DNA from: a candidate division WWE3 bacterium CG_4_9_14_0_2_um_filter_35_11 | Lineage (GTDB): Bacteria; Patescibacteriota; WWE3; 2-01-FULL-39-13 | Assembly (NCBI GenBank): GCA_002789015.1 | Contig: PFSJ01000030.1 | Location: 1 to 39,392 of the forward strand | Direction of reading: 5' to 3' | Length of the DNA: 39,392 nucleotides | Shown: positions 4,880 to 38,104 of the stretch, piece by piece | Layout: every line of letters begins with the position of its first letter | Position numbering within the stretch: the first letter of the stretch is position 1 | Notes under the pieces: generated by a model | The model's input: the letters and a program-made list of their open reading frames with translations, nothing else | Told to the model about the DNA's origin: nothing | Databases searched by the model: none | Translations under genes and position numbers: made by a program

Positions 4880-6124
4880 ATGCTTTTTATTATTTTATCC
4901 AACCAACAGTTTGATTCTGATTTGAAGACTAATAAGTGGCATGTTGCAAATCAGCTTGTAGCAAAGGGCCATAAGGTTATTTTTGTAGATCCACCTTTAC
5001 GTTTTAAGGCGATAAAGAATTTTTCAAAGGTTATAGACAAAAAGTCAGATAATTTGATTGTTTATAAACCGATTAATTTATTAAATTTCAAACCGATTTC
5101 TAAATTAAATACAATCTCACAAGTCAATATTATTGAAAACGCAATTAAAATTCTAAAAGCAGAAAATGAAAAAAGAGTTTTATATATTTATCACTTTGAT
5201 TTTCCTGATTTAAGAGACTTTATAAAAGATTTTAAACACGACGTTAAAGTTTATGATTGTGTTGATATTTATTCAGAATTCCCAGAATATGCAACAGGAG
5301 CAAAGGTTAATCCTTCCATTATTTCTCTAATTCAACATTTGGACGACGCATTAAAAATCAAATTTAATCAAAATGGGCTAAGCTTAAAAAACTGGGTTGA
5401 TGATCAAGAAAAATGGCTATGTAAAAACTGCGATTTAGTTTTTGCAAGCGCTCCTGGAATAGTTACACATCTAAATAAATGGAGAAAAGATGTGCAGTAT
5501 CTTCCAAATGCAGTCATATTTGAAAAATTTGACCATGAAAAAAAACTCGAAGAACCAAAAGATTTAAAAGAAATTCCACATCCACGAATCGGATTTACAG
5601 GAGCCATAGACACATATAAAACTAATATTCCGCTAATTGAAGAATGTGCTGCTACATATCCAAATTATCAATTTATAATGATTGGGCCCGAAAAAGTTTC
5701 TGATCCAAACTTAGATCTAAGTAAATTAAAATCCATGGAAAACGTTCACTTTCTTGGATCAAAACCATGGGAAGAAACTCCGACGTACTTTGACCACTTT
5801 GACGCTTTTTTCATTCCATACAATATCAATGACTACACAATTGGCTCACATCCAATTAAATATTTTGAAAGCCTGGCCGCAGGACTCCCAACAATCGCAA
5901 TGCTATCATCTGTAAAAGAATTTGACGTTGATGGGTATATTACAGAAGACGAAACACAATTCATAAAAAACATAAAAATTGCAATCGATGAAGACTCCAC
6001 TGCAAAAAGAAAAGCACGAAAAGAATTAGCCAAAAAACACAGCTGGAGCAATAAAGTAGATAGACAAGTGGAATTAATAACACAGAAGCTCAAAGAGCTT
6101 ACAATTGTGAACTATTCAAACTAG
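4880..6124 (+). CDS. Glycosyltransferase, GT4-like (GT-B fold)
   Basis: 414 residues. The start (LFIILSNQQFDSDLKTNKWHVANQLVAKGH) looks like a GT-B N-terminal Rossmann domain. The second half has the typical donor-domain pattern: RIGFTGAIDTYKTN (new Rossmann strand and glycine turn), FIMIGP, VHFLGSKPWEETP and FFIPYNINDYTIGSHPIKYFESLAAGLPTI, the last matching the GT4 nucleotide-sugar-binding region. It probably transfers a sugar onto a lipid or polysaccharide in the cytoplasm; the substrate cannot be read from sequence. Start is the ATG at 4880, behind a TGCTAAAAT extended -10-like box at 4861-4869. It diverges from the membrane ATPase. The TAG stop is followed 27 bases later by the next ORF, so the two may be co-transcribed. 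Confidence 0.82.
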   Translation: MLFIILSNQQFDSDLKTNKWHVANQLVAKGHKVIFVDPPLRFKAIKNFSKVIDKKSDNLIVYKPINLLNFKPISKLNTISQVNIIENAIKILKAENEKRVLYIYHFDFPDLRDFIKDFKHDVKVYDCVDIYSEFPEYATGAKVNPSIISLIQHLDDALKIKFNQNGLSLKNWVDDQEKWLCKNCDLVFASAPGIVTHLNKWRKDVQYLPNAVIFEKFDHEKKLEEPKDLKEIPHPRIGFTGAIDTYKTNIPLIEECAATYPNYQFIMIGPEKVSDPNLDLSKLKSMENVHFLGSKPWEETPTYFDHFDAFFIPYNINDYTIGSHPIKYFESLAAGLPTIAMLSSVKEFDVDGYITEDETQFIKNIKIAIDEDSTAKRKARKELAKKHSWSNKVDRQVELITQKLKELTIVNYSN

Positions 6125-8135: not shown

Positions 8136-8978
8136 CTACTTTTTGATAGCAACAACCCAAATAGTATCAAATACGTTTATTCCCAAGGTTTTATTTATAA
8201 TGTTGCAGATAAAGTAGTAAATCTGAAGCCTCAGGAGTTTTAGTCCTTCATTTGCAAAATATGGATCTGGACCAAGTTCAATAATTTCAAATCCCTTTTT
8301 GATTAAGAAATCTTTTAGCACTTGCGGTGTAAAGTGAGAGAGATGTATTTCGTCAACACTCCCGTCTAGTTTGATTTTCTTGAGGTATGGCTTCCCTATT
8401 ATTTTTTTGACAATTGCTTTTAAGCTATATATGTCGTTTGGAACTGCGATTGTTAGGATTCCGCCTGGAATGAGGAGTTTATGAACATTTAAGATTGTCC
8501 CATTCACATCGTTCACGTGTTCTAAAAGGTGAAACATAGAGATATTGTCAAACTTTTTTCCATTGAAATTTATATCATCAAGTGTTCCATGAAAAATATC
8601 TAAATTATATTTTTCTTTTGCAATTTTTACAGCGGAGTCAGAAACTTCAGTTCCGAAAACTTCCGTGTAGTATGGTTTTGCAATATCAAGAAATTGACCA
8701 ATTCCACATCCAACATCAAGAAGTGTCCCTTTTTTTATGTTTTTCCGCATTTTTTTAACACGTCTTTGCCAAAGTAACTTGCGCGAAGATAGATTCGAAA
8801 GCCATCCGTCATATTTTGAGGATTTTGAATAATAATTGATAATTTCTTTTAAAGTTGGGCACGGATTGTCGAATATATATCGACAATCCGCGCATCTATA
8901 AAGCCCGACTTCTTCATCAAACATTTCAATATTTTTGCTTTTGCACAAGTTACATTTAGTTATAAATTCCGTTTCCAT
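8136..8978 (-). CDS. SAM-dependent methyltransferase with N-terminal zinc ribbon
   Basis: 280 residues. The start holds a four-cysteine zinc ribbon (CNLC near residue 9, CADC near 28). Residues about 80-95 carry SAM motif I, LLDVGCGIGQFLDI, followed by FGTEVSDSAVKIAKEKY and the motif IV-like SMFHLLEHV; IPGGILTIAVPN is the usual post-strand-5 turn. This is the class I Methyltransf_23-type layout common in sugar and polysaccharide clusters. The substrate is unknown, but lying between two glycosyltransferases suggests envelope glycan or sugar-nucleotide modification. ATG at 8978, with TATTAT six bases upstream. It diverges from the second GT4 gene across 41 bases. Confidence 0.82.
   Translation of the reverse strand: METEFITKCNLCKSKNIEMFDEEVGLYRCADCRYIFDNPCPTLKEIINYYSKSSKYDGWLSNLSSRKLLWQRRVKKMRKNIKKGTLLDVGCGIGQFLDIAKPYYTEVFGTEVSDSAVKIAKEKYNLDIFHGTLDDINFNGKKFDNISMFHLLEHVNDVNGTILNVHKLLIPGGILTIAVPNDIYSLKAIVKKIIGKPYLKKIKLDGSVDEIHLSHFTPQVLKDFLIKKGFEIIELGPDPYFANEGLKLLRLQIYYFICNIINKTLGINVFDTIWVVAIKK
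8862..8890. repeat. Inverted repeat inside the zinc-ribbon methyltransferase
   Basis: Arms CGGATTGTCGA (8862-8872) and TCGACAATCCG (8880-8890), perfect over 11 bases, with a 7-base AT loop. It encodes the residues right after the second zinc-binding CxxC (RYIFDNPCP), so it is coding as well as hairpin-forming. Confidence 0.7.
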
Positions 8979-19807: not shown

Positions 19808-21493
19808 CTATTCTAGCAGAGAGGCTTTTAAAAATTCTATAAAAAGTGGATGCGGATCAAGCGGTCTTGATTTATATTCGGGATGACCTTGAGTTGCAAT
19901 AAAAAATGGATGTTTATCTTTTGGAAGCTCAATAAATTCCACAAAAAAATTATCAGGCGAAGTTCCAGAAACAACAAGTCCAGCCTTTTCTAACCTTTCA
20001 CGATATGCATTATTGAACTCGTAGCGATGTCTATGTCTTTCGCGAACTAAGCCCGGTTTTCCTTTTTCAAACTTTTTATGTTTTTCATAAACTTCATATG
20101 CCAACGAACATTTTTTCAATTTACAATCAAAAGTTCCAAGTCTCATTGAACAGCCATCGCCTTTAATTGTTTGATATTTAGGATCAAAAGGAATTTCATA
20201 AATTATAGGATTTTTGGTATCAGGATTTACCTCAACTGAATTAGCATCTTTAAGGCCTAAAACATCTCTTGCATATTCAACACACGCAAGTTGCATTCCA
20301 TAACAAAGTCCTAAATATGGAACCTTATTTTCACGTGCAAACTTTACTGCTTCAATTTTTCCTTCGACACCACGCGAACCCCAACCAATTGGAACAACAA
20401 TTCCATCGGCATCTTTTAATGCAAAATCCATCTTTCCAGCTTCTTTTTCTGAATTAACAAACAAAAGTTCAACTTCTGTATCGTTAAAAACACTCGCATG
20501 CTCAATTGATTTTACGAGTGCATAATAAGAATCAATCAATTGCGAATTTCCAGTTGAAAAATATTTTCCAACAATTGCAATCTTTGTCTTATTTTTCATC
20601 TTTGACTTAAGAGTATTCACATAATTTTCCCACTTGCGTAAATTGAGCTTTGGCTTGGCCTTCATGTCAAAGAATTTCAAGATTCTTAAATCCAGGCCCT
20701 GTTCGTGAAGCCTAAGTGGAACTCTATCAGCGGTATCAAGATTCTCGTTAGAAAAAATATCTTCCTTTAAAATGTCGAACTTGTGTGAAAATTTATACTT
20801 TCTTTGATCATCAATTGGGATCTCGCTTCTTATGACCAAAAAATCCGGATAAATTCCCATTGTCATCAAAGCTTTAATTCCAAATTGAGCAGGCTTCGTT
20901 TTTGGTTCACCAACATGTGGCGGAACCGGAACATATGTAACATGAACATGCGCAACTGGGAGCTTTTTCGCAAGCCGTCTTGCAGCTTCATAATACAAAC
21001 CATTATTATTTTCGTATTCGCCGACTGTTCCGCCAAGCTCTATAACAATAAAATCAGCTTTACTATGTTCGGCAGCCGCCATATACCTTCTAATAATCTC
21101 ATTTACAACATCCGGATTTGGCTCGACGTCCTCACCGTTATATTTCATCTGGCGTTCATCGCTTATAACTTTGAGATAAAGTTGCCCCATTGTAATGAAA
21201 TTATCGTATCCAACTTCTTGCTCGAGGAATCTTTCATAGTTTCCCAAATCTATGTCAGACTCACATCCGTCGAAACACAAGAAAGGATCTCCGTGTTCGA
21301 TTGGATTGATTGTTCCAAAATCGACATTTAAATTATTTTCACATTTTATTGGACACACACTATATCCATGCTTTTTTAGAAGCATTGAAATCGATGCGGA
21401 AGTAACGCCTTTTCCTAAAGCACTCATAACACCACCTGATACAAAAATAAATTTTGTTGAGCTTGAAATGTTACTTGATAATGATTTATTTAT
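19808..21493 (-). CDS. pyrG: CTP synthase with probable AUA start
   Basis: Makes CTP from UTP, ATP and glutamine. The synthetase domain has the nucleotide-binding loop SGGVMSALGKG, the region CFDGCESDIDLGNYERF and VPPHVGEPKTKP. The amidotransferase domain has nucleophile Cys in PYLGLCYGMQ and the His-Glu pair in GHPEYKSRP. The first ATG (21427) lies inside the nucleotide-binding loop, so it cannot be the true start. The frame is open upstream to a TAG at 21503-21505 and contains no ATG, GTG or TTG. ATA at 21491-21493 lies six bases after a TAGAAT box, the spacing used by other genes here, giving MNKSLSSNISSSTKFIFVSG. ATT at 21467-21469 is the alternative. It precedes dnaE by five bases. Confidence 0.9.
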   Translation of the reverse strand: MNKSLSSNISSSTKFIFVSGGVMSALGKGVTSASISMLLKKHGYSVCPIKCENNLNVDFGTINPIEHGDPFLCFDGCESDIDLGNYERFLEQEVGYDNFITMGQLYLKVISDERQMKYNGEDVEPNPDVVNEIIRRYMAAAEHSKADFIVIELGGTVGEYENNNGLYYEAARRLAKKLPVAHVHVTYVPVPPHVGEPKTKPAQFGIKALMTMGIYPDFLVIRSEIPIDDQRKYKFSHKFDILKEDIFSNENLDTADRVPLRLHEQGLDLRILKFFDMKAKPKLNLRKWENYVNTLKSKMKNKTKIAIVGKYFSTGNSQLIDSYYALVKSIEHASVFNDTEVELLFVNSEKEAGKMDFALKDADGIVVPIGWGSRGVEGKIEAVKFARENKVPYLGLCYGMQLACVEYARDVLGLKDANSVEVNPDTKNPIIYEIPFDPKYQTIKGDGCSMRLGTFDCKLKKCSLAYEVYEKHKKFEKGKPGLVRERHRHRYEFNNAYRERLEKAGLVVSGTSPDNFFVEFIELPKDKHPFFIATQGHPEYKSRPLDPHPLFIEFLKASLLE

Positions 21494-25955: not shown

Positions 25956-26144
25956 TTATTTCCTTTTTGATAACAAAACTACACCGAATGCGACAAAAGC
26001 AAGTGGCCACAATTTCCATATTGTTTCCCAAACACCATACTCTATTATCCCAAAATTGTTAAGAACCATTAAGCTTCCTATTATTATGATAGCTACTGCG
26101 AACCAAAACGCACCGGTTAGTTGGTTTTCTTTTTTGTTTTCCAT
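25956..26144 (-). CDS. Small two-helix membrane protein (LiaF/DUF5668-like)
   Basis: 62 residues. A short charged start (MENKKENQ) is followed by FWFAVAIIIIGSLMVLNNFG, then a loop with WETIWKLWPLAFVAFGVVLL and a basic end SKRK. The pattern of glycine-rich helix, NNFG, KLWP and a second helix matches the small LiaI/LiaF transmembrane-region family (DUF5668-like). Such proteins are membrane stress components of unknown mechanism. Its start overlaps the end of the thymidylate synthase-like gene by 28 bases, and it precedes lemA by three bases, so this is a tightly coupled unit. Confidence 0.75.
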   Translation of the reverse strand: MENKKENQLTGAFWFAVAIIIIGSLMVLNNFGIIEYGVWETIWKLWPLAFVAFGVVLLSKRK

Positions 26145-27691
26145 GTTTTTATTGTATCAAATTCCAAGTGATTATCTTGCGTGAATTTTAAACCTAATTT
26201 GATTGCCGTTTCAGCTCTTTCAAGTTGCCTGCCTATATAAAGTGCATTGCCTAAAGTTGATAGTGCAAGGCCATTTTCAATTTCAAAAGAAAGTAGTCTT
26301 GCTGCGTTCCTCTTTTTTCCATCTATTCGCCACTCCTTTATTTCCTCATTTCCCCTTGGAGTCATCCATCGAACAACTATATCGTTGCCTTCTACCATAA
26401 CGCTTAAATTTCCTCTTGGATCCCACTCACAGTATCCTTTGTCATTTTTTTCATACAATTCTTTTGCATCTTGATAATTGTGTTCATAAATATGAGCCAT
26501 GTTGGAAATTGTTATTAAAGCTCCCATTTCAACGTTTAGTTCGTTCGCGATTTTTGATTGGATCTTTCTTAATGCAAATGCGTTTAGTGGCCATGCGTTA
26601 TACATGTCATTGCTTCGAAAATATGCGGTTAGTGTTAATTTACCTTCATATATTTGACATTGAATTAAAAATAAACATGGCGTTTTTGTAGGTGGCCTTT
26701 TTGGAAAAACATCAGTAAATGGATTTGCTAAAAGCGCGATTGCGCCTTTGTCGTATTTGAATCCTTTTAGTTTTCGGACTATGGAGATCGCAACTTGGTC
26801 AAATCCCCCGTTTGTAAAAAATTCATCAAATCTTTCAAGTTTTAGCCATGGATAAATTTCTTTGAGCGCATTGATTTCTAAATGTGCAAAGTTAAATAAC
26901 CTTTCACCATATGTGTAATCTTCTGTGTGTAGATCTGGATCAAAAAATCCTTTGAAGTATTTTTCTAAATCTTCTTTTGAAAATGGCAGATATTCTGGAA
27001 CATTCCAATTTTCAGGATCTTCGTCTGTCACAACCGCTGTAAGATTTAGCATTTCCTTCATTGTTTTTGAAGTATCGGAAACATAACTTATTACGGCTTC
27101 TGATTGTAATCCAAACATGCTTATGTGCTTGAGTATGGAAGTGTATGTTTCTGCAATTGTAGGACGCCTTATTTTCGTGGAATCAATTTCGCTTGGATAA
27201 TTTTGAACATCGGCTTTTGGCGGATCAGGAAAAACTTCGGGGGAACGCCATGAGAGGGTAGCCCCGGCCGCGGCCGGGGCTACCCTCATTCCCCGAAGTT
27301 TTTCCACCCCTATCATGTCAATGACTTCTACGTTTTTACGAAAGGCTTCGATAGCTTCACGGGGAATTTCTTTCTCGATTTTTGCAATGTCATCGCCAAT
27401 AACTTTGTAATCATCATCAACGCCATTTTTCATGAAACGCAAAAACGCTTCTCCACTTCCCATTAAGTCGCTTCCTATTAAGTAAAGTTTTGTGATAGTT
27501 GGATTTGCAAGAATGTTTCGCAAGACATAATTAATGCCCTTTTTTGTATAAAGTTGACCGGCAATATAAAAATCATCGGGATCGACAAGCTTTTCAAGAG
27601 TCTCTTTAGGAGTCCACAAAGTTGCAATCGCAACGCCTGAATTGGGATTTGAAATAGTTAGGCGGTCCTTAAAATAAATCGGCCAAGACAT
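26117..27691 (-). CDS. Thymidylate synthase-like protein with N-terminal DUF4346
   Basis: 524 residues from the ATG at 27691 (a TTG two codons upstream is possible). The N-terminal half (SGVAIATLWTPKE, then DFYIAGQLYTKKG, and LYLIGSDLMGSGEAFL) resembles DUF4346, related to methyltransferase subunit MtrA. The C-terminal half follows thymidylate synthase: KTPCLFLIQCQIYEGKL holds the candidate catalytic Cys and the following Gln; FRSNDMYNAWPLNAFAL matches RSxDxxLGxPFN; and ISNMAHIYEHN matches the D-x-HIYxNH site. This fused, archaeal-type form is unlike standard ThyA. It should methylate dUMP to dTMP, with the folate or pterin type open. A 78-base near-palindrome is embedded near residues 129-155. 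First gene of the run into lemA-htpX-gatCAB. Confidence 0.78.
   Translation of the reverse strand: MSWPIYFKDRLTISNPNSGVAIATLWTPKETLEKLVDPDDFYIAGQLYTKKGINYVLRNILANPTITKLYLIGSDLMGSGEAFLRFMKNGVDDDYKVIGDDIAKIEKEIPREAIEAFRKNVEVIDMIGVEKLRGMRVAPAAAGATLSWRSPEVFPDPPKADVQNYPSEIDSTKIRRPTIAETYTSILKHISMFGLQSEAVISYVSDTSKTMKEMLNLTAVVTDEDPENWNVPEYLPFSKEDLEKYFKGFFDPDLHTEDYTYGERLFNFAHLEINALKEIYPWLKLERFDEFFTNGGFDQVAISIVRKLKGFKYDKGAIALLANPFTDVFPKRPPTKTPCLFLIQCQIYEGKLTLTAYFRSNDMYNAWPLNAFALRKIQSKIANELNVEMGALITISNMAHIYEHNYQDAKELYEKNDKGYCEWDPRGNLSVMVEGNDIVVRWMTPRGNEEIKEWRIDGKKRNAARLLSFEIENGLALSTLGNALYIGRQLERAETAIKLGLKFTQDNHLEFDTIKTWKTKKKTN
27228..27305. repeat. 78-base near-palindromic element inside the thymidylate synthase-like gene
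   Basis: Outer arms GGAAAAACTTCGGGG (27228-27242) and its reverse complement (27291-27305), 15 of 15. Inner perfect 34-base palindrome 27254-27287 centred on CCGCGG. Between them are bulges of 11 and 3 bases. The centre is almost pure G/C in an AT-rich gene. The frame stays open and reads MRVAPAAAGATLS across the centre. Confidence 0.9.
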
Positions 27692-27732
27692 AAACAAACA
27701 ATACGGGAGATGTTAAAAGCAAGCAAGAATGG

Positions 27733-28040
27733 TTACTCGGGGTTTTGATTGAGTCTTTCTAAAATGGCATCTTTAATATTTGGATCAAAGTTATCCAAAG
27801 CGCCCTTCTTCTTAAGACTTTCACCAAATATCATTATGAATTTGTCCACGGCAACCGTAACCATATCAGTTTTTCCCGCATCAGACATTATTCCGTCGCC
27901 TTGTAGTTCATTAGCTCCTCTGACTACATTCGTTAGATTAGTGGCTGCATGCCCATATCCGCGATCTCCACCAGCACCTGTCGGAGATGAGAGACGGAAT
28001 CTTCAGGATTTTGTGGTGTTTCAGATATAGTTTTGTTCAT
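27733..28040 (-). pseudogene. Frameshifted small gene, paralogue of the next gene upstream
   Basis: Starts at an ATG (28040) as MNKTISETPQNPEDSVS and reaches a stop in that frame after 35 codons. The neighbouring frame continues as GGDRGYGHAATNLTNVVRG and VAVDKFIMIFGESL, ending in DAILERLNQNPE and TAA at 27733-27735. The second part resembles the intact protein at 28084-28335 (DYGHAEASLRTSL; later EIRDRVQVLL), so the two frames are one gene broken by a single indel near 27980. A strong promoter lies upstream, suggesting recent loss or a base-calling error. No family recognised. Confidence 0.65.
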
Positions 28041-28049
28041 ATGCTTCGC

Positions 28050-28077
28050 ATTATATATACCTGCTATAAGACGTCAA
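28050..28077 (-). promoter_or_regulatory. Promoter of the frameshifted gene
   Basis: TTGACG (28072-28077), 16-base spacer, TATAAT (28050-28055) on the minus strand, then nine bases to the ATG at 28040. The nearest thing to a consensus promoter in the window; predicted leader of two to three bases. Confidence 0.75.
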
Positions 28078-28083
28078 GCTTTA

Positions 28084-28335
28084 CTAAATATCCCCAGATC
28101 CTAATAGTACTTGTACCCTATCACGAATCTCCAACGAAAATCTTGATAAATCAATCTCCTCTTGGGCATTCATTCGAACTATTGATTGATATAACCTTTC
28201 AGCAATCTTATCCAACTCTGTTGGATTTAAAGCACTCCCATCATTATAAATTGCATTGATTATCAGAGATGTTCGTAAAGATGCTTCAGCATGACCATAG
28301 TCCAAAGGATCTTCTACTTCAGCGGTTTCGTTCAT
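28084..28335 (-). CDS. Small hypothetical protein, intact paralogue of the frameshifted neighbour
   Basis: 83 residues from the ATG at 28335; an ATG at 28359 would add eight. The shorter form is preferred because MNETAEVEDP lines up with MNKTISETPQ of its paralogue. Mostly helical and acidic: LDYGHAEASLRTSLIINAI, then LNPTELDKIAERLYQSIVRM and SLEIRDRVQVLLGSGDI. No membrane segment, signal peptide or known motif. The tandem paralogue downstream (27733-28040) is broken by a frameshift. It may have arisen by tandem duplication in this unstable island. Confidence 0.6.
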   Translation of the reverse strand: MNETAEVEDPLDYGHAEASLRTSLIINAIYNDGSALNPTELDKIAERLYQSIVRMNAQEEIDLSRFSLEIRDRVQVLLGSGDI

Positions 28336-28371
28336 GTTCTTTGTGACAACAAATAGCATTTTTGAGTTGAT

Positions 28372-28673
28372 CTAACCCGCAACACAAATTTCCAGATCTT
28401 TTAGTTTTGCCGTTTCGGTTTTGCAGTCAGTATAAACAAATGAAGCAAATGCAGTTCTTCGATTTTCATCTACGATGCATTTTATTAATGCTTTGCAGCT
28501 TGTAAAGGCTCTTCATTTTTATCAACTTTTCCGCCTGCAGAATGAAAAAATCCCGAAGCAATCTTTTTATGCTCTGATCTTTTTAAAACCAAAATCTTTC
28601 CATCTTTACGAACAAACATATTCGCACACATAACAATATTATGAGTAATTATTGCGGAATTAACCACTTGCAT
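28372..28673 (-). pseudogene. Broken Nudix hydrolase gene
   Basis: ATG at 28673. The first 62 codons read as the start of a Nudix domain: CANMFVRKDGKILVLKRSEH, then GFFHSAGGKVDKNEEPLQAA, the first half of the Nudix box (G-x5-E). The REx2EExG half is absent and the frame stops at 28485-28487. A shifted frame continues as ALIKCIVDENRRTAFASF and ends DLEICVAG with TAG at 28372-28374; I do not recognise that part, which may belong to another gene joined by deletion. Without the catalytic Glu cluster the product cannot be an active Nudix enzyme. Confidence 0.6.
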
Positions 28674-28679
28674 AGAGGG

Positions 28680-28685
28680 ATTGTA
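28680..28685 (-). promoter_or_regulatory. -10-like hexamer before the Nudix remnant
   Basis: TACAAT on the minus strand followed by exactly six bases and the ATG at 28673. No clear -35. Confidence 0.5.
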
Positions 28686-28765
28686 GCAAATTAGGAAATC
28701 TATAGAGTCATGTGATTATTTCCCAACGACAATAAGTTCACTATTTAAATTCAGAGAATACTGAA

Positions 28766-29397
28766 AAAAATCATATGCCGATGTCGGCAAAATGATAAAA
28801 ATAGCAGTGGGAAGCCCTAAAGAGACAACGAGACAAATTCGTGACTACAAATTGTCACGATACGCATGCTATCTTATAGCGCAAAATGGTGATTCTTCAA
28901 AGAAAGAAATCGCACTTGCTCAAACATACTTTGCGATTCAAACAAGAAGGCAAGAAGTATTTCAACAGTTAGCACAAAACGAAAAAAAACTTTTTGTAAG
29001 AGGAGAAATAAAAAACCACAACAAAAAATTATTTGCTACTGCAAAACAAGCTGGGGTAAACAATTTCAGTCGCTTCAATAATGCAGGATATGAAGGTCTG
29101 TATGGTATGAGAAAAGATCAGATTCAAAAGAAAAAAGGCATAGGGAAAGATGACGTACTGGATAGGGCTGGAACAACAGAGCTTGCAGCTAACCTATTTC
29201 GCATTACCCAAACAGACGAAAAAATTAGAAACGAAGATATAAAGTGAGATTACAAAACAAGCAATACCCATTTTGAGATAGGCAAAAAAGTAAGGCAAAC
29301 AATCCGTGAAATTGGTGGAGCAATACCTGAAATACTCAAACCTGAAAAACATATCAAAGAATTAGAAAAGGAACAAAAAAAAATCATTAAAGAGTCA
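28766..29397 (+). pseudogene. dinD: dinD remnant: 5'-truncated with an internal TGA
   Basis: The plus strand reads [20 protein letters not shown], then [55 protein letters not shown] and [19 protein letters not shown], all close to the DNA damage-inducible protein DinD. A TGA follows EDIK at 29245-29247. The same frame then continues the family sequence (DYKTSNTHFEIGKKVRQTIR, ending HIKELEKEQKK). The TGA falls where the E. coli protein has Gly. The N-terminal third is missing; a fragment in another frame ([11 protein letters not shown]) just upstream suggests an extra frameshift. The upstream sequence holds no further recognisable dinD. A decayed gene. Confidence 0.8.
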
Positions 29398-29461
29398 GCT
29401 GAATACTTAATCCTCCTGGTTGTTCAGGCACTTAAATTCCACATATTACCCACTATTGTTT

Positions 29462-30211
29462 TTAGCTCCACTTATGCACAAAATACTCATTTAAGTCTCC
29501 AGTTTTTCCGTCTGCTTTGAATCTTTTTATTTGTTTTAGGCCGGCGGACGCCAGTATCTCCTCGATGTCGGAGATTTCTTTGACACTGTATTTGTGAAAA
29601 TATCTTTTTGCATTTTTGTTATTCGCCCATCCTAAAAAGTAGTCTCCTTCTTCAAGTTTAATATCCGATATTAAATCGTGGCTTTGTTTAGGCGTAAACC
29701 GCAGATCATCTTGATAGTTCCAAATTGTGAATATTAGAAGTCCGTTTTTTGAAACTAGTTTTGAAAGTTGCGAGAACCATTTTTTCCGAAGTTCATTTGA
29801 TGGAATATGATGCGTAATTCCAAAGGCAACTACGACATCGAAGGTCACGGGAGACAATGATTCTATGTCATTTATGACATCAATTTTCCTAAATTCAATT
29901 CGTTCATTTGCGTTTTTCCTTGCTATATCAAGCAAATAATCATTCGAGTCAATTCCGAGATATTTAAATAAGGGTAGCCCTTCTTTTTCAGGGGCTACCC
30001 CTATAAAGCGGCCGTTTCCACATGCAACATCTAAAACACTAATTGGACGCTCAAAGCTATTCGTTTCCCCAAACTCAACTCGTATAATTTCCATAACCCT
30101 CCCCCACCCCTTCCATGCGGATTTTCTGGTTTTATCAAAATCTGGTCCTACTTTGTCGTAAAAATCCTTATTTACACGTATAATGTTGTCAATCGTTGTT
30201 TTATCCATCAT
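29462..30211 (-). CDS. Trm9/ABH8-like class I methyltransferase
   Basis: 249 residues. SAM motif I is VLDVACGNGRFIG near 60-72, followed by YLGIDSNDYLLDIAR, VVVAFGITHHIPS (motif IV region) and GLLIFTIWN. The start (FYDKVGPDFDKTRKSAWKGW) and the late GDYFLGWAN, RYFHKYS and EILASAGL segments match the Trm9/ABH8 family, whose members methylate the carboxymethyl group on uridine 34 of tRNA. It abuts elp3 head to head; Elp3 makes that carboxymethyl group, so context supports the assignment. ATG at 30211; a second ATG follows at once. An inverted repeat sharing the core GGGTAGCCC with the thymidylate synthase element lies inside it and encodes the segment right after motif I. Confidence 0.75.
   Translation of the reverse strand: MMDKTTIDNIIRVNKDFYDKVGPDFDKTRKSAWKGWGRVMEIIRVEFGETNSFERPISVLDVACGNGRFIGVAPEKEGLPLFKYLGIDSNDYLLDIARKNANERIEFRKIDVINDIESLSPVTFDVVVAFGITHHIPSNELRKKWFSQLSKLVSKNGLLIFTIWNYQDDLRFTPKQSHDLISDIKLEEGDYFLGWANNKNAKRYFHKYSVKEISDIEEILASAGLKQIKRFKADGKTGDLNEYFVHKWS
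29972..30000. repeat. Inverted repeat with GGGTAGCCC core inside the Trm9-like gene
   Basis: Arms GGGTAGCCC (29972-29980) and GGGCTACCC (29992-30000) with an 11-base loop. The same core sits in the inner palindrome of the element at 27228-27305. In frame, it encodes GVAPEKEGLP after the glycine-rich SAM motif. Confidence 0.75.
30179..30184 (+). promoter_or_regulatory. Possible elp3 -10 box inside the Trm9-like coding region
   Basis: TATAAT, 27 bases before the elp3 ATG. Since the two start codons touch, the elp3 promoter has to lie in the partner's coding sequence. The mirror-image TATAAT for the Trm9-like gene is at 30236-30241 inside elp3. No strong -35 boxes. Confidence 0.4.
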
Positions 30212-31921
30212 ATGAAAAAAAATAATTTAAAAACTATTATAGACTCGCTTTCAAAATTAAATAAGCCATTGGAAAAGGATCTATTTAAATTGCTTCACGA
30301 AAATACAAAAGATGATGGCGGATTATATTCAAAAAGCGAAATCTTAGCAGAAATCGAAAAACTTAATAATCCACTTTATAAAAAGCTTGTACAAATAATA
30401 AAAATGAAATCAACTAGAACTATTTCTGGAGTTACTCCGGTAACTGTTTTAACAAAACCTTTTCCTTGCCCTGGCAAATGTATTTTTTGCCCAAATGATG
30501 TGCGAATGCCAAAAAGTTATTTATCCGACGAACCTGGTGCCCAAAGAGCAAATCGAAATAATTTTGATCCATATGCACAAACTTTTAATCGCCTTTTAGC
30601 ATACAAAAATATCGGACACCCTACAAATAAAGTAGAACTTATAATTTTAGGCGGAACTTGGACCTCATACCCAATCGATTATCAAATTTGGTTTGTTAAA
30701 AGATGTTTTGATGCAATGAATGATTTTAAAAAAGCTAATGAAGATACATACGAATCCAAAATGGATATTCCATATGAAGAAAAATCCTTACACGAAATCA
30801 ACGGTGAAAAAATAGTTGATTCATATAATAAGGTTATTTCAAAAGCAATAATTCCTAAAAAATCTCAAGCAAAAAATGAAACCGCAACATGGGAAGAACT
30901 CTTTGCCGTTCAAATCCAAAATGAGAATGAAAAAACAAGGTGTATTGGACTTGTAATAGAAACACGTCCAGATGAAATCACAGAATCTGAAGTTATAAGA
31001 ATTAGAAAACTTGGAGCGACAAAAGTCCAAATCGGTTTTCAAAGCTTAAACGACAAGGTTTTGGAAAAAAATCACCGCGGACATAACGTAGCAACAACAA
31101 GAAATGCAGTAAAACTTTTACGTCAAGCAGGTTTTAAAATTCATGCACACTGGATGCCAAATTTGTATGGATCAAACCCAGATATGGATATTGGAGATTT
31201 TAAAAAAATGTTTGAGGATGAGGATTTTATGCCGGATGAATTAAAGATATATCCATGTTCACTAATTCAAAGTGCTGAACTTATGCAGTATTACAAAAAG
31301 GGTTTATGGAAACCATACACATTCGAAGAATTATCTTACGTTTTAGAAGAATGTTACAAATTAACTCCTGAATATTGCAGAATAACAAGAATGATAAGAG
31401 ACATCGGATCTCAAGATATCGTAGTTGGAAATAAAAAAACAAATTTCAGACAAATAGTTGAAATAAATCTAAAAAAGCAAAAAGCTGAAATAAACGAAAT
31501 TAGATATAGAGAAATAAGAGGCGAAGCCATAGAAGCTGACAAACTAAGTGTAAAAACAACAAAATATGAGACGTCCACATCAACTGAATACTTTTTAGAA
31601 TACGTTACAGAAAAAAATAAAATAGCAGGATTTCTTAGGCTTTCAATTCCTAAAATTCCAAATTATATTGAGGAACTAAAAAATGCAGCAATAATCCGCG
31701 AAGTTCACGTCTATGGACAAAGCATAAAAATCGGACAAAAAGACGAAGGCAAAGCTCAACATCTAGGACTTGGAAAAAACTTAATCTTGCTTTCCAAAAA
31801 ACTTACAAAAGAAAATGGATTTGATAAACTAGCTGTGATATCGTCAATCGGAACACGTGAATACTACAAAAAACAAGGATTTGAAATGAAAGAAATATAT
31901 CAAATATCTGAAATAGATTAG
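30212..31921 (+). CDS. elp3: Elp3-type tRNA uridine-34 radical SAM/acetyltransferase
   Basis: 569 residues. The radical SAM domain starts with TKPFPCPGKCIFCPND, giving Cys spacing C-x3-C-x2-C, then the Elp3-specific YLSDEPGAQRANRNNFDPYAQ (acceptor-site and tRNA-linked loop), LIILGGTWTSYP and GLVIETRPDEITE. The C-terminal GNAT domain has the acetyl-CoA loop KAQHLGLGKNLI and KLAVISSIGTREYYKKQGFE. Elp3 puts a carboxymethyl group on U34 of tRNA using acetyl-CoA and SAM. In eukaryotes it works in Elongator; bacterial and archaeal Elp3 acts alone. ATG at 30212 touches the start of the Trm9-like gene. The N-terminal basic helical region (about 1-75) is the likely tRNA-binding part. Confidence 0.93.
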   Translation: MKKNNLKTIIDSLSKLNKPLEKDLFKLLHENTKDDGGLYSKSEILAEIEKLNNPLYKKLVQIIKMKSTRTISGVTPVTVLTKPFPCPGKCIFCPNDVRMPKSYLSDEPGAQRANRNNFDPYAQTFNRLLAYKNIGHPTNKVELIILGGTWTSYPIDYQIWFVKRCFDAMNDFKKANEDTYESKMDIPYEEKSLHEINGEKIVDSYNKVISKAIIPKKSQAKNETATWEELFAVQIQNENEKTRCIGLVIETRPDEITESEVIRIRKLGATKVQIGFQSLNDKVLEKNHRGHNVATTRNAVKLLRQAGFKIHAHWMPNLYGSNPDMDIGDFKKMFEDEDFMPDELKIYPCSLIQSAELMQYYKKGLWKPYTFEELSYVLEECYKLTPEYCRITRMIRDIGSQDIVVGNKKTNFRQIVEINLKKQKAEINEIRYREIRGEAIEADKLSVKTTKYETSTSTEYFLEYVTEKNKIAGFLRLSIPKIPNYIEELKNAAIIREVHVYGQSIKIGQKDEGKAQHLGLGKNLILLSKKLTKENGFDKLAVISSIGTREYYKKQGFEMKEIYQISEID

Positions 31922-37195: not shown

Positions 37196-38104
37196 ATGTC
37201 TGGAAAATTAATCACAATACAAAAGAGAATAAAATCGACAAAAAATACAAAAAAGATAACAAAAGCTATGCAACTTGAAGCTTCTAGCAAAATGAAAAAA
37301 CTTCAAAATAAAGCGGTTTCATCAAGAGAATACACTCAAGGACTTTTAAGTATATTGAAAAATACTACGGCAGAGGATGAAGAAACAGGAGTTTTCAATC
37401 AAATAAGAGAAACAGGGAAAACCGTTTTCATTTTGTATTCATCAGATAAAGGACTTTGCGGAGGACTAAATTCACGAATCATAAATACACTTCTTAGTTC
37501 TATGGAATGGAAAGAAACGCCAGAAGAAGATCGAATATTGATAACAATAGGAAAAAAAGGTTACGACTACGCGATGTATAACAAAATTCCAGTTGATAAA
37601 TCATTCAAAGCAATTAGTGAAAAAATCACACTAATAGAAACATTAGAAATAATAGAAGTCATCTTAGAATATTGGATATCAGGCGAGGCCATGAAAGTAT
37701 TCATGGCCTCGCCCCACTACAAAAGCCCAATAATTTTTTATCCACAAGTGAAATCCTACCTTCCTTTGACTAACGAAACTATAAAGTTACATTTGTCTCC
37801 TATGTCAGATATTTCAATCAAAAAAAGCGAAGAAAATGAAAACGATAACAAACCAATAGTAATATATGAACCAAGCTTTTCCGAATTTAAAGATTCAATA
37901 ACTAGGCAGATAATCCAAGCATTGTTTCTGGCTTCCTTTTTAGAATTAAAAGCATCCGAATATTCAAGCAGAATGTTGGCGATGCAAAATGCTACAGATT
38001 CTGCAGGAGAAATAATCGACACGTTGTCACTAGAGTTTAATAAAGCAAGACAGGCGGCCATAACGCAGGAAATTGCTGAAATAGTTGCAGGCGCATCAAT
38101 ATAA
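37196..38104 (+). CDS. atpG: ATP synthase F1 subunit gamma
   Basis: 302 residues. The N-terminal helix (IQKRIKSTKNTKKITKAMQL, EASSKM) and the C-terminal helix (ALFLASFLELKASEYSSRML, then AMQNATDSAGEIID and LEFNKARQAAITQEI) form the central shaft; the Rossmann-like middle has SDKGLCGGLNSRI. It lies 15 bases after atpA. A 14-base perfect inverted repeat falls in the middle domain at the strand-turn-strand SGEAMKVFMASPHYK; length there matches other gamma subunits, so it has not clearly inserted extra residues. Confidence 0.96.
   Translation: MSGKLITIQKRIKSTKNTKKITKAMQLEASSKMKKLQNKAVSSREYTQGLLSILKNTTAEDEETGVFNQIRETGKTVFILYSSDKGLCGGLNSRIINTLLSSMEWKETPEEDRILITIGKKGYDYAMYNKIPVDKSFKAISEKITLIETLEIIEVILEYWISGEAMKVFMASPHYKSPIIFYPQVKSYLPLTNETIKLHLSPMSDISIKKSEENENDNKPIVIYEPSFSEFKDSITRQIIQALFLASFLELKASEYSSRMLAMQNATDSAGEIIDTLSLEFNKARQAAITQEIAEIVAGASI
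37682..37713. repeat. 14-base perfect inverted repeat inside atpG
   Basis: Arms GGCGAGGCCATGAA (37682-37695) and TTCATGGCCTCGCC (37700-37713), 14 of 14, loop AGTA. It encodes GEAMKVFMAS and is richer in G/C than the surrounding gene. Confidence 0.9.

Follow-up and report, generated by a model that had tools for sequence, protein, structure and literature searches.

The 78-nt near-palindrome at 27228-27305 of the window (the whole 39,392-nt stretch of DNA that was analysed) most likely carries, as its core (27254-27287), an intragenic REP/REPIN-like copy, composed of an inverted doublet of GGG-TAG-CCC triloop hairpins. The copy is part of a genome-wide family, and a RAYT-like HuH/Y1 transposase from the same genome (C30:5065-5625) is very probably the enzyme that goes with this family. 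That genome (G000; 750,652 bases in 31 contigs, designated by C-numbers, GC 34.7%; patescibacterial and WWE3-like, judging from the relatives of its RAYT) and the comparison genomes are draft assemblies, and the gene calls, made with a simple purpose-built caller, are approximate. Features of the window are listed in Table 1.

Table 1. Repeat elements, palindrome arms and host gene in the window
Feature	Position	Strand	Remarks
Whole 78-nt near-palindrome	27228..27305	.	In frame in host gene
Inner loop-free palindrome	27254..27287	.	Inverted family-A doublet; GC-rich centre CCGGCCGCGGCCGG replaces the usual T-rich spacer
First family-A unit, GGGTAGCCC	27256..27264	+	GGG/CCC stem, TAG triloop
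Second family-A unit, inverted (GGGCTACCC on +)	27277..27285	-	21 nt from first unit, start to start
Outer arm 1 (GGAAAAACTTCGGGG)	27228..27242	+	Outside the repeat family; complementarity missing in sister species
Outer arm 2 (CCCCGAAGTTTTTCC on +)	27291..27305	-	Exact complement of arm 1
Host gene: MtrA-like, thymidylate synthase-like and PterinBD-DUF4346 parts	26117..27697	-	Pfam; alignment; AlphaFold2 model
Second-family palindrome copy (TTTAATATCCGATATTAAA)	29657..29675	.	In frame in methyltransferase ORF 29462-30211(-), which also holds a family-A doublet
Second family-A doublet in window (ATAAGGGTAGCCCTTCTTTTTCAGGGGCTACCCCTAT)	29968..30004	.	In frame in methyltransferase ORF 29462-30211(-); conserved in sister genome

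A near-palindrome within a fused thymidylate synthase-like gene

The original prediction, made from the letters of the window, described perfect outer arms around a perfect 34-base core, and both are present: the outer arms are complementary at 15 of 15 positions, and the core (GAGGGTAGCCCCGGCCGCGGCCGGGGCTACCCTC) pairs at 17 of 17 positions (27254-27270 with 27271-27287) with zero loop, leaving 11 bases (27243-27253) on one side and 3 (27288-27290) on the other unpaired between the outer arms and the inner palindrome. The term near-palindrome is accurate in view of these unpaired bases. A loop-free palindrome of 34 bases had been estimated as not expected by chance in 39 kb; the loop-free arm measures 17 nt, whereas 60 dinucleotide-shuffled versions of the window gave arms of 11 nt at the longest. 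The reading frame does stay open through the palindrome, which lies in frame within ORF 26117-27697(-). RNA folding, proposed at the time as a check, gave a strongly stable transcript structure for the near-palindrome (-65 kcal/mol, z -7.8); the corresponding value for single-stranded DNA was -36.2 (z -8.7). An Rfam search of 26500-30300 returned zero family matches.

The host gene encodes an MtrA-like part fused to a thymidylate synthase-like part and a pterin-binding DUF4346 part, and relatives are found in 15 of 37 related genomes. MtrA is a family of methanogen methyltransferase subunits. The Pfam domain order, MtrA (residues 4-135), thymidylate synthase (262-420) and PterinBD-DUF4346 (426-508), places the palindrome between the MtrA-like and synthase parts and not, as had been supposed, between the DUF4346 and synthase parts. 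AlphaFold2 modelled residues 137-173, at the palindrome, as a coil, in a prediction whose quality is modest (mean pLDDT 68).

The core belongs to a genome-wide repeat family

The core consists of two inverted GGGTAGCCC units, and a search for second copies, which had been called for beforehand, revealed that the unit is multi-copy: 81 copies of GGGTAGCCC and 12 of GGGCAGCCC are spread over 57 places or clusters in the whole of G000 (k-mer expectation ~0.1), and the 10-mer AGGGTAGCCC was observed 62 times versus 0.14 expected under a second-order Markov model. The unit of this repeat, which we call family A, is a small triloop hairpin, (A)AGGG-TAG-CCC(TT), and at many of its places two units, inverted or direct, are spaced by exactly 20 nt; the core at 27254-27287 is atypical both in its GC-rich centre and in its spacing. 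Among 45 genomes of the class, AGGGTAGCCCTT is limited to G000 and a sister species of the same genus (G001), plus one stray match elsewhere. Although 91% of G000 was called as coding, 36 of the 57 family-A places are intergenic and 21 (37%) are inside called genes. GTAG is present within GGGTAGCCC, where it seems to belong to the hairpin's own stem and loop and not to form a foot; the units AAGGTTCAACCTT and AAGGACTGTCCTT, beside related RAYT genes, are without GTAG. A reading of family A as GTAG-tagged was doubted after a survey of the flanks of RAYT loci.

A second palindrome family in G000 (TTTAATATCSGATATTAAA; 22 copies, and 0 in G001) also occurs inside genes, with 11 of its 22 places intragenic according to the simple gene caller and all 11 read in one open frame, as ISDIK. 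In-frame copies inside unrelated genes comprise 21 of family A and 11 of the second family, and some intragenic copies change length in frame relative to G001, the one at C9:7624 by 8 extra residues. Retention of in-gene copies only where they are readable and tolerated would parallel the account given of REPs inside genes and of Rickettsia palindromic elements (RPEs) (PMC3733652). The gene that holds the family-A doublet at C9:7624-7654 in frame encodes 690 aa and by eye is uvrB-like, a candidate identity; REPs have also been reported in uvrA and uvrB (PMC3733652).

Family-A elements lie on both sides of a RAYT-like gene

G000 encodes three Y1_Tnp proteins. The 186-aa product of C30:5065-5625 has REP_Tyr_transpos as its sole NCBIfam match (E 2.5e-13), and because its 50.2 bits fall below the curated NF047646 cut-off of 80 we refer to it as RAYT-like. 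It contains the motifs NHFH, WQ and YIHENP, of which HxH and YIH-NP do not vary among the aligned proteins, corresponding to the HuH and Y---NP catalytic motifs of RAYT (TnpA_REP, class 2 of PMC6006769); a PDB search with this protein gave a chance match only. Family-A elements at C30:4983-5011 and 5612-5640 immediately flank the gene, and three further elements (3573, 6784 and 7611) lie within ~2 kb, for five in total. C30 carries another RAYT-like gene as well, and there the flanking palindrome is TTTAATATCSGATATTAAA, of the second family. The third protein is an IS200/IS605 TnpA (C11:3276-3725; 115.7 bits versus a cut-off of 55) that lies far from family A, the nearest element on C11 being at 21231.

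Taking E. coli TnpA_REP and IS200/IS605 (PMC6006769) as analogues, we infer that family A is mobilised by the C30 RAYT. The enzyme would recognise the hairpin in single-stranded DNA and cut and rejoin it, such that copies spread, and those that land in genes would persist only where they can be read in frame and the protein tolerates them, as in the coil that separates the synthase part of the host protein from its MtrA-like part.

Family-A sites differ between sister species

G001 holds 15 family-A places. Its site syntenic to the C30 RAYT locus (C7:6640-6759) has neither the RAYT gene nor the repeats, and it has empty sites corresponding to the G000 copies at C24:8177, C4:1206, C10:40539 and others; in the reverse case, the G001 copy at C1:256343 is absent from G000. 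Places common to both genomes are C10:28404, C11:21231, C19:29972 and C7:16134. The proposal that the palindrome is a mobile element tolerated in frame was therefore right in kind, given the multiple copies, the presence/absence differences between sister species and the in-frame copies, but the outer 15-nt arms proved to lie outside the repeated element.

The G001 orthologue of the host protein is 92% identical. Rather than lacking an insertion of about 26 residues, as had been anticipated for relatives, it has a single family-A unit (AAAAAGGGTAGCCCCTATAAAATGG) in the corresponding linker, which is shorter by only 3 residues. Since G001 carries one unit, the site was probably already occupied in the common ancestor of the two genomes. 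G000 and G001 differ here in the 34-nt doublet and in the outer arms, with a direction of change that we infer. Complementarity of the outer arms is missing in G001 and in the homologous stretches of outgroups, and the G001 linker folds no better than shuffles (z -0.2); the arms look like a later templated (quasi-palindrome) rewriting of the flanks.

Two other kinds of difference were observed at orthologous places. At C11:21231 and C21:253 of G000, compared with C1:54360 and C1:13154 of G001, the triloop is flipped and the stem kept (GGGTAGCCC versus GGGCTACCC), which suggests inversion of the hairpin tip. At the sites orthologous to C10:17048, C16:42968 and C31:24216 of G000, G001 carries a different palindrome, resembling its RAYT-linked GGCCAGGCC type; different palindrome families thus seem to be drawn to the same places in genes.

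RAYT genes are paired with their own repeats in other genomes

RAYT homologues were collected from 80 loci, mostly in Patescibacteria, the closest being from a WWE3 genome (50% identity). At 47 of the 59 testable loci the two flanks had a repeat of 12 nt or more in common, versus a mean of 1.7 in displaced control flanks. These repeats differ in sequence and share one design, GGN-NNN-N'CC hairpins with odd loops, often in inverted doublets 17-21 nt apart, and hairpins that combine a 3-nt loop with a stem of 6 or more were present in 43% of RAYT flank windows versus 6% of controls. The G001 RAYT pairs with GGGCCTGGCC; the two RAYTs of another genome of the class, G007, pair with GGGATTATCCC (24 copies) and GGGTGTCACCC (21 copies), both rare elsewhere; and the RAYT of G009, the closest relative within the class (51%), pairs with GGGTAGTCCC (28 copies, rare elsewhere). 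Each RAYT thus has its own co-occurring repeat in G000 (two RAYTs), G001, G007 (two) and G009.

The synthase linker itself differs among lineages. In G007 the homologous linker holds GGGGTGTCTCCCC, 1 mismatch from that genome's own RAYT repeat, and in G014 it holds a AGGACACTGTCC doublet that is not repeated in the G014 genome. The G014 linker sequence GGACACTGTCC was considered as a repeat family, a status unsupported by its single copy in that genome. One linker with different palindromes in different lineages offers a natural experiment in how coding genes absorb mobile DNA. We give roughly even chances to the broader idea that patescibacterial RAYTs represent a widespread non-GTAG class of REP systems, with the inverted GGN-NNN-N'CC triloop doublet as its hallmark, and that entry into genes in frame is so frequent that this one linker independently acquired lineage-specific palindromes (GGGTAGCCC in G000, the one-mismatch RAYT repeat in G007 and a third in G014). 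A literature search, mostly without subscription papers, found no paper joining RAYT with Patescibacteria and none joining a palindromic element with the Candidate Phyla Radiation.

Alternative explanations

That the outer arms are missing from relatives is what would be expected if the palindrome were purely mutational, template switching in an imperfect hairpin having rewritten one arm in a genome without SbcCD and with no mobile element involved. SbcCD is a hairpin nuclease; an SbcD model found no match in G000, while 13 of 14 control genomes matched, and long hairpins may be easier to keep where SbcD is not detectable. Moreover, G000 contains 47 GC-rich in-gene hairpins (a few of them family A) versus 0-1 after synonymous codon shuffling, G001 contains 22 versus 0, and several GC-clamped hairpins differ between the two species without a change in length, as if templated. 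Mutation would nevertheless leave unexplained the 57 places that have one unit in common, their position at the RAYT gene and the empty sites, and we consider it improbable as an account of the whole, although rewriting by template switching probably does account for the outer arms and may account for the GC-rich centre too.

The very stable RNA hairpin, together with the many intergenic family-A copies at most ~50 nt past a stop codon (some then followed by T runs), could point to an RNA or DNA structure that serves the host, such as a terminator, an mRNA-stability or translation-pausing hairpin, or a binding or uptake signal, maintained by selection and spread only incidentally. Such a role is very unlikely for a repeat that matches no Rfam family, occupies just 57 places among ~786 called genes with 21 of them inside genes, differs in its sites between sister species and, across the class (45 genomes), is restricted to a single genus. 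We think it just as unlikely that family A is an RPE-like or MITE-like repeat moved by a different enzyme. The IS200/IS605 TnpA, which scores above its cut-off, is one candidate, and the in-frame copies do behave like RPEs, but no family-A element lies near this gene, compared with five around the C30 RAYT, and the pairing of RAYT with repeat recurs in other genomes; its distance from family A disfavours the IS200 TnpA as mobiliser.

Comparison with known palindromic repeats

Family A is of the REP/REPIN-like kind, without a conserved GTAG foot. Like REP/REPIN and RAYT systems (PMC2817692, PMC3116915, PMC6006769), it comprises short, multi-copy palindromes, often in doublets, with a RAYT gene flanked by its own, lineage-specific repeat, an enzyme with HuH and Y---NP motifs, and sites that differ between sister genomes. 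Several features set it apart: units are triloop hairpins of 9-19 nt whose stems are GG..CC, a GT[AG]G foot is not conserved from one RAYT locus to the next, the RAYT scores below the NCBIfam cut-off, 37-50% of copies are in genes, and the host is patescibacterial, a group that PMC6006769 does not mention. In that paper, the atypical REP-like structures beside TnpA_Y1 of subclass 2.6 (Bacteroidetes) and of class 3 likewise are without a GT[AG]G foot and have copies elsewhere in the genome, and the subclass 2.6 motifs NH[LIV]H, WQ and YIH[QN]NP resemble NHFH, WQ and YIHENP here. Family A may be akin to the subclass 2.6 atypical repeats.

Intragenic GTAG and CGTC REPs and RPEs (PMC3733652) are also in-gene palindromes that keep the frame in unrelated proteins, probably in flexible parts. 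The CGTC tag reported for R. conorii repeats (PMC3733652) did not recur in the family-A unit or its flanks, and whereas the CGTC repeats, RPE-4 and RPE-6 included, are without a dedicated transposase (PMC3733652), the repeat described here flanks a RAYT-like gene. The analogy with RPEs drawn in the original prediction holds for the in-frame copies in unrelated genes; REP/RAYT is the closer kind, since family-A repeats border a RAYT-like gene.

Little room for selfish repeats might be expected in reduced patescibacterial genomes; this one has two co-resident RAYT-like genes, each with its own palindrome family and with a third to half of the copies in genes. The triloop-doublet design common to several lineages provides an easy signature for finding more, and the enzyme-repeat pairs provide a test set for hairpin recognition by RAYT without a GTAG guide.

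Separate from the repeat families are the GC-clamped perfect in-gene hairpins, which often start with GGCG or GCGG and have unique stems; examples are at 37682-37713 and 8859-8893 of the window and at C20:15714-15749, C15:35881-35912 and C24:15722-15759 of G000. Some are conserved between the species, and at C15:35881 both arms have changed together.
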